Below are positions 14,489-20,063 of a DNA stretch of 64,000 nt, piece by piece. A model generated the notes under the pieces. It ran no database searches, was not told the origin of the DNA, and saw only the letters and a list, made by a program, of their open reading frames with translations. This stretch comes from a bacterium. GTDB lineage: Bacteria; Electryoneota; RPQS01. Positions within the stretch are counted from its first letter, which is position 1; each line of letters opens with the position of its first letter. Position numbers and translations under genes: made by a program. The stretch spans positions 186,001 through 250,000 of the forward strand of contig JAHDVH010000003.1 of NCBI GenBank assembly GCA_023382385.1, written 5' to 3'.

Positions 14489-15235
14489 TTAGGCGGCAAC
14501 CTCTTCTTTTATCCAATCATAGCCTTGCTCTTCAAGCTTAAAGGCCAGAGTCTTATCGCCAGACTTTACAATCCGCCCATCCACAAGAATGTGAACATAG
14601 TCCGGCACGATGTAGTTCAGCAATCTCTGGTAGTGTGTAATGACGAGTGCGCTGAAGTTTGGGCCACGCAAGCTATTGACACCTTGCGAAACGATTTTCA
14701 AAGCATCAATGTCCAATCCAGAGTCCGTCTCATCCAGAATGGCCAGTTCCGGCTTCAACATTCCCATTTGGAGAATCTCGTTGCGCTTCTTTTCGCCACC
14801 CGAGAATCCCTCGTTCAGATAGCGTTTCGTAAACTCCGGCCTGATATCGAGCAGCTTGAGCCACTTCTTAATCTCGGTATCGAACTCCTTAAAGCTCGGG
14901 GTCTGCCCAAACCTTTCGGTCATCGCCAGACGGAGGAAATTGTTGACAGAGACTCCATAGATTTCCTGCGGGTACTGAAAAGCCAGAAAGATACCCTTCT
15001 TCGCACGTTCATCTGGTTCCATTTCAAGCAGACTTTCGCCCTTCCATATAATGTCGCCGCCAGTCACCTCATACTTTGGATGACCCATAATTGCGGCGGA
15101 AAGCGTAGATTTTCCGCTCCCGTTTGGTCCCATGATCGCGTGCACCTCCCCGACTGGAACGTCAAGGCTAAGCCCGCGAAGAATCTCTTTCCCCTCGACT
15201 GCAACGTGGAGATCACGAATTTCAAGCTGGTTCAC
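14489..15235 (-). CDS. sufC: SUF system ATPase SufC
   Basis: This ABC-type ATPase drives the SufBC2D scaffold. Walker A GPNGSGKST (about residues 36-44), Q-loop FQYPQEI, signature SGGEKKR, Walker B LAILDETDSGLD and switch histidine ITHY are all present. The ETDSGLD variant is characteristic of SufC. Length (248) is normal. It is the first structural gene after the Rrf2 regulator (39-base gap), and the operon order sufC-[three genes]-sufB-sufD is unusual. Confidence 0.96.
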   Translation of the reverse strand: MNQLEIRDLHVAVEGKEILRGLSLDVPVGEVHAIMGPNGSGKSTLSAAIMGHPKYEVTGGDIIWKGESLLEMEPDERAKKGIFLAFQYPQEIYGVSVNNFLRLAMTERFGQTPSFKEFDTEIKKWLKLLDIRPEFTKRYLNEGFSGGEKKRNEILQMGMLKPELAILDETDSGLDIDALKIVSQGVNSLRGPNFSALVITHYQRLLNYIVPDYVHILVDGRIVKSGDKTLAFKLEEQGYDWIKEEVAA

Positions 15236-15274
15236 AGCTACTCCTCAAACTTTATCCTTCAATTTCAAAAATCG

Positions 15275-15778
15275 TCAACTTCTTGCGGCGCGCGCCGTAA
15301 CGGCTGCAGGATCAGGCACGTCCGCTGCAGCTGAGCGATAAACCGAAGCCAGAGGCGTAAACTGCTGTTTCTCCTCCATCTCGAGCAGGTCAGCCAATGT
15401 CCGCTCTCTGAAAAAACCACGCAGCATATCCTCCGCCTCTGACCACAGGTGTCTGACAGTACACTCTTCTGAGTGAACACAGCAAGTCGGGTCAGACGTA
15501 CATTCGTTAAACGCCAAACTCCCCTCAAATGCTTCAATCACCTGTAAAACATTAATTTCACTTGGCTTCTTGGCCAAAGCGATTCCACCTCCCTTCCCAC
15601 GATGGGTCTCAAGCAACCCTTCGCTGGATAGATAGGCGACAATTTTGGTCAAAAAGACCCTCGGGATGTGCTGTTGCTCCGCAATTTCACGAGTAACAAA
15701 TGTTTTGCCCTCGTCATAGCCTCGGGCCACAAACATAAGCATACGGAGTGCGTAATCGGCCTGCAATGAAATTAGCAT
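15275..15778 (-). CDS. Rrf2-family (IscR/SufR-like) Fe-S-sensing repressor
   Basis: The 167-residue winged-helix protein starts MLISLQADYALRML, the standard Rrf2 opening. ATG 15778 was chosen because AAAGG lies seven bases upstream and the open frame before it contains the promoter. The recognition helix region reads IPRVFLTKIVAYL, followed by the wing GKGGGIALAK. The cluster-binding region has Cys93, Cys99, Cys100 and Cys106, close to the IscR spacing. By family knowledge it senses cellular Fe-S status and represses the suf operon it heads. A palindrome overlapping its own -10 box supports autoregulation. Confidence 0.92.
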   Translation of the reverse strand: MLISLQADYALRMLMFVARGYDEGKTFVTREIAEQQHIPRVFLTKIVAYLSSEGLLETHRGKGGGIALAKKPSEINVLQVIEAFEGSLAFNECTSDPTCCVHSEECTVRHLWSEAEDMLRGFFRERTLADLLEMEEKQQFTPLASVYRSAAADVPDPAAVTARAARS

Positions 15779-15809
15779 GGTATTACCTTTAAACCTGACT
15801 TTGCCAGTC

Positions 15810-15844
15810 ATATTAAATATACAGCTAAAGTTCCGGCAAGTCAA
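15810..15844 (-). promoter_or_regulatory. Promoter and candidate operator of the rrf2-suf operon
   Basis: On the minus strand TTGACT (15839-15844), 17 bases, then TATATT (15816-15821): a near-consensus sigma-70 promoter. An 11-base perfect palindrome, atattaaatat (15810-15820), overlaps the -10 box and is a candidate operator for the Rrf2 protein. A second inverted repeat TGACT-N5-AGTCA lies just downstream (15795-15809). Confidence 0.75.
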
Positions 15845-15909: not shown

Positions 15910-15938
15910 TTGAATTATTCTGGAGGCATGTGTATCTT
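15910..15938 (+). promoter_or_regulatory. Promoter of the TPP-riboswitch transcript
   Basis: TTGAAT (15910-15915), a 17-base spacer and TATCTT (15933-15938) put the transcription start close to 15945, exactly where the riboswitch P1 stem begins. It fires divergently from the rrf2 promoter about 70 bases away. Confidence 0.65.
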
Positions 15939-15945
15939 TGACATG

Positions 15946-16040
15946 TAGCCGTAGGGGTGGTCGCATGGGTTTTCCACAAGCGGCCTGAGAGAGTCCCTCG
16001 AACCTGAACCGGATAATGCCGGCGGAGGAAACGGTGCGGT
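15946..16040 (+). ncRNA. TPP riboswitch (THI element)
   Basis: The conserved blocks of the thiamine pyrophosphate aptamer appear in order: GGGGTG (P2/J region), CGGCCTGAGAGAG (containing the invariant CUGAGA), a short variable stem, GAACCTGAACCGG, ATAATGCCGGCG and GAGGAA. P1 can form from gccgt (about 15948-15952) and acggt (16031-16035). The 3' part of P1 overlaps tgcggt (16035-16040), which is complementary to the 5' arm of the downstream terminator (accgca, 16079-16084). Thus ligand binding would free the terminator. This means expression is switched off when TPP is plentiful. Confidence 0.93.
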
Positions 16041-16079
16041 ATCGTGGGCCACCAGTTATGGATTCCCAGAAGTGAATGA

Positions 16080-16113
16080 CCGCAGCCGTCTAACGATTGG
16101 CTGCGGTTTTTTT
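16080..16113 (+). terminator. Riboswitch-controlled intrinsic terminator
   Basis: A perfect eight-base stem (ccgcagcc / ggctgcgg) with an 11-base loop is followed by seven T, between the TPP aptamer and the receptor start at 16129. This is the expression platform of the riboswitch: premature termination when TPP is bound. Confidence 0.9.
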
Positions 16114-16128
16114 ACATTTGGAGTTCAC

Positions 16129-18597
16129 ATGAAGCTGTTTCACGTCTTGCTCTTGGGCATTTGTACGTACGCGTTCGGCCAGTCAGCGTTGACAGGCATC
16201 GTCAGTGACTGGTCAAACGGCCGTGCTCTTGATGGAGTCTTGGTTGAACTGGACTTGGATACTATCGCGACCACGAATCGATTTGGCCGATACCTTACGG
16301 AACCAATTGATAAACCAAGCGTGGTTGTGAAGTTCTCGCGCGACGGTTATGTTCCTTTTTCGGTTGTGCTCGTGCTTGCCGACGCCGATCTTACAGAGTA
16401 TAATGTCGAACTCAGGCCATTTGTTCCCGGCGCGGAATCCGCAGAGAGCCTTCGCGAGGCGCCACGCTACAAGATTGATGAAGTTACTGTGACAACCACG
16501 CGTGCTGCATCAGATTATCCGGTAACGTATTCAAATGTTGGCAGAGAAATTCTTGATAAGACTCATTACGGACAGGATTTGCCGCAGCTGTTCACACAGT
16601 TGCCAAGCGTGAACACCTACTCGGACGGAAGCAACGGACTTGGTTACTCGTATTTGCGCATGCGAGGATTCAGTCAGAATCGTGTAGGTGTCTACCTCAA
16701 CGGCATCCCCCTCAACGATGCCGAATCACATGAAGTGTTTTGGATTGACCTTCCGGACTTCGCCGAGGACGTCCAAGACATGCAAGTCCAACGTGGCATC
16801 GGCAGTTCGTTATACGGGGCGGCGGCGCTGGGAGGATCAATCAATCTGATTACAAAGACTCCAGGACTTGGCGATCGCCCGACTTTGCGGGCCGAAGGAA
16901 TGTATGGGACGTGGAATACCAGACGCGCATCTCTGCAATACACTTCCGGGCGTGTCGGCAAACGTTACGGCTTTGCCGGCCGATTCACGCGTATGGAATC
17001 GAATGGGTATCGATTTGGTTCATGGGCGAAGCTCTGGAGTTACTATTTCGCCGCAACAAGATTCTCGAATCGGCATACGACGCGAATTCTGTTTTATGGC
17101 GGGCCTTCCAAGACACACCTTGCCTACGAAGGAGTTTCAAGAGAATTCCTGAACGGTGAGGTGAGCGGTGACAAGAGCACAGACCGTCGATATAATCCTC
17201 TTTCTTATCCGGGCGAGATTGACCATTTTTTTCAACCTCACTATGAGCTGCATGACACGTGGCGGCTGCGCGATGATATTGTACTGGATAATTCTCTTTA
17301 CATCTTCCGAGGCGACGGCTACTACGATCAGTTCCGCAGCGATCAAGACTTGTCCCGTTACTTCTATTCGCTTCCAGCAGATTCGCTGAGCGCGGACGTT
17401 CTGCGCCGTAGAAACGTCGCGGAGATTGACGGAGGCTGGATTCCACGATCCACATTCCAACATAGATTTGGCCAGACAGTGGTCGGTGGAGAACTTCGTC
17501 TGCATGAGGCCCGTCACGAAGGAACGGTTCAATGGGCTTCACAACTGCCTTCGGAAGCTCGTCCGAACTTTCACTATTACGACTATCGAGTTGAGAAGCA
17601 GGTATTCGCGGGCTACGTACATAATCTCATCAGACTTGCGGACCCCCTTCAGGCGATGTTCGATTTGCAGGTTAAGACCCAACGATACAAGATGAGTGAT
17701 GATCGGCTGTTCGACGTTTCGCTGGACAAAACATTCTCGGCGCTCGCCCCTCGGGTGGGGCTTAATTACCGCCTGCATGACGGCAATGCAGCGAAGAACA
17801 TTCCACTGTCCGTTGTCTATGCCAATGCCTCCCTCGCACAGCGTGAACCTGCATTTAGGGACTTATACAATGCGCAAGACTACTACTCCACTCCGCTAAT
17901 CGCTCCGAACAGATTCGCAAGAGGAACTCAAGGTGGTGAGTATGTCGGCCCAATGCTGAGCGATGAGAAACTTGCAAACTTCGAAATCGGGTGCATTGCA
18001 CATTGGAGGACTGCGCACTTTGGCCTCAATTACTATCTAATGAATCTTCGCGATGCCATTGTGACGGACAACGGACAGCTTGACGACCTGGGAAATCTGC
18101 TCTCGGCAAATGCCGAGCGGGTACGCCATCAGGGTTTTGAATTTGTCGGTGGTCTTGCACCATTTCGGTGGCTCAAGCTGAGCGGCAATCTCGCACTGGC
18201 AGATCACAGATTCGTAGACTACGTTGAGATCGATTGGGTCACATATGAGCCAACATCCCGCAACGGCAATCGGATCGGTCAGGACCCCCTGTATCTCGCA
18301 AACTTACAGGCCGATGTCGAATACGGCGGGTTCATCGGAGGCCTCGGTGCCCGATTTGTGGGAGCGCAATTCACGGATAACAGTGAAGACAAATCGACAG
18401 AGATTGACGCCTATTCGCTTGTTCACATTGACTTGGGCTACAAAATCAAGAACCTCCCTGGGAATGTCCCTCTTGCAGAGATACGTGTCAGGGTGAACAA
18501 TGTGCTAAACCGTGAATATGAGACTGTGGGCTACGGACCAACCTACATCGTCGGCGCTCCGCGCGCACTGTATACCACGCTGGCAGTCGAACTGTAA
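16129..18597 (+). CDS. TonB-dependent outer-membrane receptor under TPP riboswitch control
   Basis: The 822-residue protein has a signal peptide (cleavage near FGQ), a carboxypeptidase-regulatory-like beta domain (LTGIVSDWSNGRALDGVLVE onward, residues about 20-100), a TonB plug domain (DEVTVTTTRA, then RMRGFSQNRVGVYLNGIPLND and YGAAALGGSINLIT), and a 22-strand-type barrel ending VAEL-like (LYTTLAVEL with terminal aromatic-free Leu). It should bring a scarce ligand across the outer membrane using TonB energy. The riboswitch points to thiamine, a phosphorylated form or a precursor as ligand. ATG 16129 follows GGAG by about six bases. The stop overlaps the start of the symporter gene (TAATG). 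Confidence 0.9.
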   Translation: MKLFHVLLLGICTYAFGQSALTGIVSDWSNGRALDGVLVELDLDTIATTNRFGRYLTEPIDKPSVVVKFSRDGYVPFSVVLVLADADLTEYNVELRPFVPGAESAESLREAPRYKIDEVTVTTTRAASDYPVTYSNVGREILDKTHYGQDLPQLFTQLPSVNTYSDGSNGLGYSYLRMRGFSQNRVGVYLNGIPLNDAESHEVFWIDLPDFAEDVQDMQVQRGIGSSLYGAAALGGSINLITKTPGLGDRPTLRAEGMYGTWNTRRASLQYTSGRVGKRYGFAGRFTRMESNGYRFGSWAKLWSYYFAATRFSNRHTTRILFYGGPSKTHLAYEGVSREFLNGEVSGDKSTDRRYNPLSYPGEIDHFFQPHYELHDTWRLRDDIVLDNSLYIFRGDGYYDQFRSDQDLSRYFYSLPADSLSADVLRRRNVAEIDGGWIPRSTFQHRFGQTVVGGELRLHEARHEGTVQWASQLPSEARPNFHYYDYRVEKQVFAGYVHNLIRLADPLQAMFDLQVKTQRYKMSDDRLFDVSLDKTFSALAPRVGLNYRLHDGNAAKNIPLSVVYANASLAQREPAFRDLYNAQDYYSTPLIAPNRFARGTQGGEYVGPMLSDEKLANFEIGCIAHWRTAHFGLNYYLMNLRDAIVTDNGQLDDLGNLLSANAERVRHQGFEFVGGLAPFRWLKLSGNLALADHRFVDYVEIDWVTYEPTSRNGNRIGQDPLYLANLQADVEYGGFIGGLGARFVGAQFTDNSEDKSTEIDAYSLVHIDLGYKIKNLPGNVPLAEIRVRVNNVLNREYETVGYGPTYIVGAPRALYTTLAVEL

Positions 18598-19994
18598 TGG
18601 AGCCTTGGGGTCTCGCGCACGCGACCACGATTGATCTCGTCATTGTGGCGATATCATTGGGAGCAGTACTCGTTGCTGGCCTCTGGAAGCCTGCGAGTGG
18701 TTTTGGGGAGTATGTCATTGCAGGCAGGCGACTTTCCGCTCCGGCATTCGTCATGTCTCTGGTCACTTCATGGTACGGGGGAATTCTTGGAGTCAGCGAG
18801 TATTCGTACTCCTACGGACTCTCGAACTGGTTTGTCTTTGGCGCTCCTTATTACCTATACGCGGTGATCTTTGCACTGTTTCTGGCAAAGCGAGCGCGAA
18901 AGTCTGAGCTTCTCTCATTGCCGGATCGGTTCCAGCTTGCCTACGGGCGAAGTGCAGCGAGACTATGCGGTGGCATAATCTTCCTTACCACTATGCCCGC
19001 CGCATACTTGTTGATGATGGGCAAGTTGATAGAGTGGATGTTTGGATGGTCGTACTCCATGTCTCTCGTAGTCGGAACGCTCTTGTCGACTCTGTACCTT
19101 TTCCGTGGCGGTTTGAAAAGTGTGGTTCGCACGGATATGCTTCAGTTTCTGCTGATGTACGTCGGGTTCGCCGTGATGGTTGTGACTCTGTTCTCTACTT
19201 ACGGCGGGCTAAACTTCATCAAGGCGCGTGTGCCTGAAGTCCTACTGACACCCACCGGCGGGCAAACAATTGGCGCCGTGCTAGTCTGGTACTTTATCGC
19301 ATCAACAACGCTCGTCGAACCGCTCTTCTATGAGCGCGCGTATGCCGCAAAATCAGAGAAGATAGTACTCCCTGGCATTCTTGTCGCCATCGTATTCTGG
19401 GCTTTGTTTGACTTCATGACAACCGCCACCGGATTGTACGCGCGCGCCCTACTTGGTGACGTTGCTTCGCCGATCTTCGCATTTCCCGAACTTGCCGCCC
19501 GCGTACTTCCTGCGGGATTGTTCGGACTTTTTCTCGCCGCCCTCGTTGCCACTGTGGCTTCCACTATCGACAGCTATATGTTTATCGCCGGTGCAGCGCT
19601 TGGCAGAGATGTCGCAGCCCGTGGGCGACCTGCAAGCGAAGAGACGGTGCTCAGGTATGTGCAAGTCGGGGCAATCTGTGCCGCCATTTGTGCTTTCTCT
19701 CTCGCGTGGTTCTCTTCGTCAGTCATCACACTCTGGCATGCTATCGGCTCGATCGCTGCTCCTTCCCTTCTGTTTCCGGGATTGCTGGCGTGGTTCTCAA
19801 AAAACCCTCCCTCACCCCGCATCGCAGTCATGGCGATGACTTTCGCCGGTCTCTCCGCATTAACTTGGAGGCTCTCTGGACTCTGGACGGAAAACGGAAG
19901 TTATTGGTTAGAAATCGAGCCTATCTATGCGGGATTGATCGTGAGCTTTGTAATCCTTGGTATTGGTCTTCAGAAACGCGGTGTTCAAAACTGA
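18597..19994 (+). CDS. Sodium:solute symporter (SSS family), candidate thiamine/precursor permease
   Basis: The 465-residue protein has about 13 hydrophobic segments and SSS-family signatures: an N-terminal GEYVIAGRRLSAPAFVMSLV stretch, the SWYGG-like helix-1 break, and a conserved helix region LFLAALVATVASTIDSYMFIAGAAL matching the family's S/T-rich sodium-site helix. It is translationally coupled to the receptor (one-base overlap of stop and start) and lies on the same riboswitch transcript. It is therefore inferred to carry the receptor's ligand over the inner membrane with Na+. SSS members in this branch vary in substrate, so the assignment rests on context. Confidence 0.85.
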   Translation: MEPWGLAHATTIDLVIVAISLGAVLVAGLWKPASGFGEYVIAGRRLSAPAFVMSLVTSWYGGILGVSEYSYSYGLSNWFVFGAPYYLYAVIFALFLAKRARKSELLSLPDRFQLAYGRSAARLCGGIIFLTTMPAAYLLMMGKLIEWMFGWSYSMSLVVGTLLSTLYLFRGGLKSVVRTDMLQFLLMYVGFAVMVVTLFSTYGGLNFIKARVPEVLLTPTGGQTIGAVLVWYFIASTTLVEPLFYERAYAAKSEKIVLPGILVAIVFWALFDFMTTATGLYARALLGDVASPIFAFPELAARVLPAGLFGLFLAALVATVASTIDSYMFIAGAALGRDVAARGRPASEETVLRYVQVGAICAAICAFSLAWFSSSVITLWHAIGSIAAPSLLFPGLLAWFSKNPPSPRIAVMAMTFAGLSALTWRLSGLWTENGSYWLEIEPIYAGLIVSFVILGIGLQKRGVQN

Positions 19995-20028
19995 AGCTGG
20001 AATTGTTCTGTCTGTTGTTTTCAATAGA

Positions 20029-20063
20029 GAAAACCCGCCGAGTGCTCGACGGGTTTTCTTTTG
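20029..20063. terminator. Terminator between symporter gene and convergent lipoprotein gene
   Basis: A stem of gaaaacccg-cga and tcg-acgggttttc followed by TTTT ends the riboswitch operon 35 bases after the stop. The complementary strand also has an A-flanked stem and may serve the converging operon. Confidence 0.85.

Follow-up and report, generated by a model that had tools for sequence, protein, structure and literature searches.

In Bacteroides, thiamin uptake relies on OMthi, PnuT, and thiamin pyrophosphokinase (TPK, Tnr3) (PMC5613172). The genes located behind THI elements include omr, which codes for a BtuB-like receptor (PMC2211319), and, according to Rodionov 2002 as cited in PMC2211319 and PMC4260697, thiV, whose product is of the PanF/SSS (sodium:solute symporter) type. 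ThiV is counted among the thiamin transporters (PMC6593275), and the ThiV of SAR11 has been proposed to carry the pyrimidine precursor HMP (PMC11452348). In fungi, genetic evidence identifies Dur31, a protein with an SSF domain, as a thiamin transporter under the control of a TPP riboswitch (PMC5997356). Furthermore, in Caldithrix abyssi (Cabys_3975-3977), a TPP riboswitch lies 163 nt upstream of a TonB receptor gene (PMC5317091, 2017); the same locus also holds a sodium:solute symporter and a TPK, and the organism is a predicted thiamin auxotroph (PMC5317091).

In the present work, we analyzed a stretch of 64,000 nucleotides (hereafter, the window) in which a TPP riboswitch precedes a TonB receptor gene and an SSS carrier gene. 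The first-pass annotation regarded the pairing with an SSS carrier as less familiar and as bringing a second class of inner-membrane carriers under TPP control; a claim to novelty on these grounds cannot be maintained, since thiV behind THI elements (Rodionov 2002, as cited above), the C. abyssi locus (PMC5317091), and fungal Dur31 all predate it. The arrangement is genuine and very likely functional, and of an already described kind. We did not find its broad distribution mapped in open-licence papers; the new content lies in this distribution, in the contrast in gene content, in the case for whole thiamin over HMP, and in the expression platform, rather than in the arrangement itself. In our opinion, it is highly probable that the unit represents a TPP-riboswitch-repressed vitamin B1 import operon of a thiamin auxotroph.

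The Riboswitch and Its Expression Platform

The features of the unit, in window coordinates, are the following:

15910..15938, + strand: candidate promoter, TTGAAT-17 nt-TATCTT, read from the sequence and ending just 5' of the aptamer
15943..16047, + strand: TPP riboswitch aptamer (Rfam RF00059), 58.0 bits against a gathering score of 54.3 bits, E 8.8e-9
16031..16040, + strand: predicted antiterminator 5' half, forming a duplex with 16079-16089; 16031-16035 doubles as the P1 3' strand
16079..16113, + strand: intrinsic terminator, GC-rich stem 16079-16087/16099-16107 and U-run 16107-16113 (seven U), -20.3 kcal/mol
16120..16123, + strand: Shine-Dalgarno sequence GGAG of the receptor gene, read from the sequence
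16129..18597, + strand: TonB-dependent outer-membrane receptor, 822 aa (PF07715, 2e-16; PF00593, 1.2e-30)
18597..19994, + strand: sodium:solute symporter (SSS) carrier, 465 aa (PF00474, 7.3e-32)
20028..20057, no strand assigned: intrinsic terminator past the unit, between convergent genes; hairpin inside a 52-nt fold (-22.8 kcal/mol), followed by a U-run

A TPP aptamer had been proposed by the first-pass annotation at 15946-16040, together with a covariance-model scan as its check. The RF00059 match covers this region entirely, spans all 105 positions of the model, and is the sole Rfam match in the 64-kb window; a genome-wide scan with the covariance model retrieved no other TPP riboswitch from the 2.9 Mb genome. 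The lineage model R1 scores the window aptamer at 66.4 bits, with this same aptamer contained in its training set. The P1 helix is formed by 15948-15952 paired with 16031-16035, and the alignment with 29 other aptamers revealed that the CUGAGA and ACCUGA...GG.UAAU.CC.GCG.AGG.A cores are kept. These data confirm that the region has the sequence of a genuine TPP riboswitch aptamer, which would be expected to bind TPP.

Transcription is predicted to start at about 15945, downstream of the candidate promoter; in most of its relatives within the order, similar CTTGAC...TATATT/TATCTT pairs occur about as far from the aptamer. A Bacteroidota-type TAnnTTTG motif at 15933 was also considered and was dropped in favor of the sigma-70-like pair common to the relatives.

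Downstream of the aptamer, duplex folding returned a helix of 10 pairs with one bulge (G16085) between 16031-16040 and 16079-16089 (-16.4 kcal/mol), which takes up the complete P1 3' strand (five nucleotides) and whose 3' half overlaps the 5' arm of the terminator. About 10% of shuffled arms match this energy when the window is considered by itself, and the antiterminator claim thus rests on its recurrence across leaders. The terminator was found in all nine tested leaders from the order of the window, each with some competing pairing; moreover, 48 out of 68 related leaders contain a terminator-like site, whereas mononucleotide shuffles gave 14.6 on average (range 10-24). A consensus terminator scan with a loop limit of 8 retrieved none in the region because the 11-nt loop exceeds that limit. 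The computed folds agree, in silico, with the terminator and the P1-overlapping antiterminator previously claimed for this leader, and they point to a transcription-terminating platform in which the antiterminator, sharing P1, and the terminator would be mutually exclusive.

The Receptor and the Carrier

The receptor consists of a signal peptide, a carboxypeptidase-like domain, a TonB-box-like sequence (DEVTVTTTR), a plug, and a barrel. The plug (PF07715) and the beta-barrel (PF00593) score above the respective cut-offs and the PF13620 match falls below that of its family; none of the NCBIfam receptor families reached its cut-off. The gene starts with the ATG at 16129 and ends with the TAA at 18595-18597; a longer reading from a GTG at 16072 was discarded, as it would cross the terminator. 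The ATG of the SSS gene (18597) uses the last A of the receptor stop (TAATG), and this one-base overlap suggests that the two genes may be translationally coupled. The unit contains no biosynthetic gene, and both the gene calls and the overlap agree with its earlier description as a single transcription unit of two transport genes.

The divergent neighbor of the unit (window positions 14489-15844) is an Rrf2 regulator followed by SUF iron-sulfur genes. In most members of the family, these genes lie beside the unit in divergent orientation, and in genome G011 they are found downstream of it; two systems with no obvious connection are thus stably syntenic.

The second gene encodes a protein matching PF00474 with 111.2 bits (cut-off 22.8) and reaching neither of the NCBIfam equivalogs compared, i.e., PanF (73 of 328 bits) and PutP (52 of 515 bits). 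In a quick tree, it groups with the sequences of its own order with strong support. The multialignment with 93 relatives revealed a Ser/Thr pair, S322-T323, the former being Ser in 91 and the latter Thr or Ser in all 93; we take this pair, in TM8, to be the one expected at the Na2 site of SSS structures. Moreover, W59, Y60, E68, W78, P134, Y137, W268, and D272 show little or no variation among the 93 relatives and mostly differ in the two SSS paralogues of the genome. The conserved residues may line a thiamin site, and transport is probably sodium-driven. With thiamin as its cargo, the clade would gain a reasoned substrate, its members being otherwise labeled proline or pantothenate symporters.

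Thiamin Genes of the Host Genome

The whole-genome search suggested in the first-pass annotation for thi biosynthetic genes did not reveal any recognizable ThiC, ThiE, or ThiN, nor any ThiL over the cut-off. For ThiG and ThiD, no full-length match was retrieved genome-wide, with short sub-domain echoes of about 30 and 23 bits; for comparison, the biosynthetic relatives reach 349-364 bits for ThiG (three) and 193-213 bits for ThiD (two). No PnuC/PnuT was found in the genome, and none of the 29 genomes searched within the phylum contains PF04973. The genome does harbor a TPK gene, unlinked to the unit (G000:C3:51356-51649), and four transketolase-family proteins needing TPP. Since TPK is present and there are no means to join the precursors, only finished thiamin would be usable by the cell. 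The host therefore appears to be a thiamin auxotroph. As none of the genes sought for making or joining the precursors is there and TPK is present, the unit most likely takes up intact thiamin, and not HMP or another precursor. Of the uptake of thiamin or a precursor previously proposed for this locus, the thiamin part is retained, whereas gene content (no ThiD, ThiE, or ThiN, with TPK kept) speaks against the precursor part.

Distribution of the Unit

The riboswitch-TonB-SSS arrangement is harbored by genomes G001, G005, G006, G008, G011, G012, G015, and G030; in G003, the TonB and SSS genes are split by other reading frames, and in G020, the SSS gene overlaps that of TPK. The search for other SSS genes behind THI elements, also suggested earlier, was carried out by scanning named genomes with the SSS alignment and retaining the best 80 loci (three of which, L092, L093, and L149, are contigs of G005, G012, and G015). 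These loci were scanned with a covariance model trained on 30 aptamers, and TonB and TPK were located by tblastn. The model returned 54 matches, one lying in the window itself and the other 53 falling in 52 of the 80 best SSS loci (L160 having two); in all 52, the riboswitch is on the SSS strand and a TonB gene is present. Most of the riboswitch-less loci among the best 80 are cut by contig ends. As a check, seven loci were scanned with the Rfam model itself, which found the riboswitch in six; in the remaining one (L075), none was expected.

The 52 loci show the following gene orders: TPP-TonB-SSS in 27, TPP-TonB-TPK-SSS in 17, TPK divergent upstream in two, and TPP-SSS-TonB in six. The linkage to TPK is thus seen in other lineages, and TPK is unlinked in the order of the window. 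The parts are reordered yet retained, and this is good evidence that riboswitch, receptor, carrier, and TPK have a function in common. About nine phylum labels are represented, including Zixiibacteriota, KSB1, Eisenbacteria, Ignavibacteriota, Kryptoniota, Krumholzibacteriota, Latescibacterota, Gemmatimonadota, and Calditrichota, some of the MAG labels looking wrong.

The swapped order TPP-SSS-TonB belongs to Eisenbacteria (L118, L136, L139, L140, L154, and L157), and a Zixibacterium locus (L160) has tandem TPP riboswitches, at 2104-2196 and 2389-2493, upstream of one TonB-SSS unit. Doubtful labels include those of the MAGs L093 (Puniceispirillum) and L104 (Fibrobacter), whose SSS genes group with the order of the window and with Latescibacterota.

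Contrast within the Phylum

Among the 29 genomes of the phylum compared, the four harboring ThiC and ThiE, all from family f7, have neither a TPP riboswitch nor an SSS orthologue, their best SSS matches being at most 27% identical; on the contrary, 23 of the 25 genomes without ThiC and ThiE carry the riboswitch. As f7 is a single family, this contrast amounts to little more than one event. The two riboswitch-less exceptions are G007, which is 88% complete, and G002, in which the stretch around an SSS remnant is masked with N and which was not counted as an example lacking the unit for this reason.

In families f3 and f4, the receptor stands alone behind the riboswitch and the SSS orthologue lies elsewhere; these families lack TPK, and most of their genomes have ThiL. 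The genomes concerned (G013, G014, G018, G019, G023, G026, G032, and G035) harbor riboswitch-TonB and lack TPK, ThiC, and a real ThiE; a bona fide ThiL occurs in most of them, with none over the cut-off in G018. The import-operon model does not explain this gene content, for which an unrecognized thiamin kinase or the uptake of TMP are candidate routes to TMP.

Proposed Mechanism and Alternative Explanations

According to the model we favor, at low levels of TPP, the P1 3' strand would pair with the 5' arm of the terminator, giving the antiterminator and allowing RNA polymerase to read through, so that the TonB receptor and the SSS carrier would be produced from a single coupled mRNA. Thiamin would then cross the outer membrane via the receptor and the inner membrane via the SSS carrier together with sodium, and the unlinked TPK would convert it to TPP. 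In turn, TPP binding to the aptamer would stabilize P1 and free the terminator, and transcription would stop.

A different cargo has to be considered in the light of SAR11 ThiV, an SSS carrier under a TPP riboswitch to which HMP uptake is attributed (PMC11452348), and of fungal Dur31, which is thought to carry HMP besides thiamin (PMC5997356): the unit might import HMP or a related precursor. We consider this very unlikely, as a cell could use HMP only if it also had ThiD, a thiazole source, and ThiE or ThiN, and the genome searches found none of these; TPK, whose substrate is finished thiamin, is on the contrary present, and it is operon-linked in 17 relatives. The same enzyme, retained in the genome of the window and in those 17 operons, would be pointless if TPP were imported; this makes it highly improbable that the pair directly takes up thiamin in phosphorylated form (TMP or TPP), be it in all lineages or in some. 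Families f3 and f4, with riboswitch-TonB, no TPK or ThiE, and mostly with ThiL, which acts on TMP, would fit such an import, but an unrecognized thiamin kinase would account for them too.

The riboswitch might also matter for the receptor only, with the SSS carrier moving an unrelated solute and being co-transcribed by accident. The SSS family is indeed diverse, the two other SSS proteins of the genome resemble sugar and choline-type carriers, and the orthologue is unlinked in f3 and f4; however, receptor and carrier are found together under about nine phylum labels, in either of two orders and with TPK lying between or overlapping, and the orthologues are 40-70% identical, against at most about 29% for the paralogues, so that accidental co-transcription appears extremely improbable. 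Starting from thiamin import as the function of the unit, a broader idea can be put forward, tentatively and as a rather unlikely one: a distinct SSS clade would be the standard inner-membrane thiamin carrier of TonB uptake operons in much of the FCB-type phyla, replacing PnuT, its thiamin specificity being independent of that of SAR11 ThiV, with thiamin phosphate possibly carried where ThiL occurs but TPK does not.

Comparison with Known Systems

The carrier of the window can be likened, at the family level, to ThiV/SSSP (SAR11, Methylobacillus, algae), as both are PF00474 carriers under a TPP riboswitch; Tyr78, Asp139, and Phe254 (SiaT numbering) are the marker residues proposed for these HMP/thiamin symporters. 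Unlike the unit described here, SAR11 ThiV is assigned to HMP, and the passages dealing with ThiV mention no TonB partner. Fungal Dur31/SSSQ likewise represents an SSF-domain carrier under a TPP riboswitch, but it is eukaryotic, controlled by splicing, and has no outer membrane to cross.

The OMthi-PnuT-Tnr3 system of Bacteroides shares with the unit a TonB receptor controlled by a TPP riboswitch and an inner-membrane carrier, and a TPK occurs there too; the inner carrier is PnuT there and an SSS protein here, and the likeness of the receptor to OMthi of the BT2390 type is one of context. The distribution of the unit points to import as the vitamin B1 supply of many, mostly uncultured, phyla, which helps to predict dependencies in communities. 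As far as C. abyssi is concerned, the main-text passages of the 2017 paper deal with one locus, without an expression platform or a distribution (PMC5317091). That locus and the one studied here have in common the riboswitch, the TonB receptor, the SSS symporter, and the predicted auxotrophy of the host, and they differ in the TPK, which in the genome of the window is encoded elsewhere.
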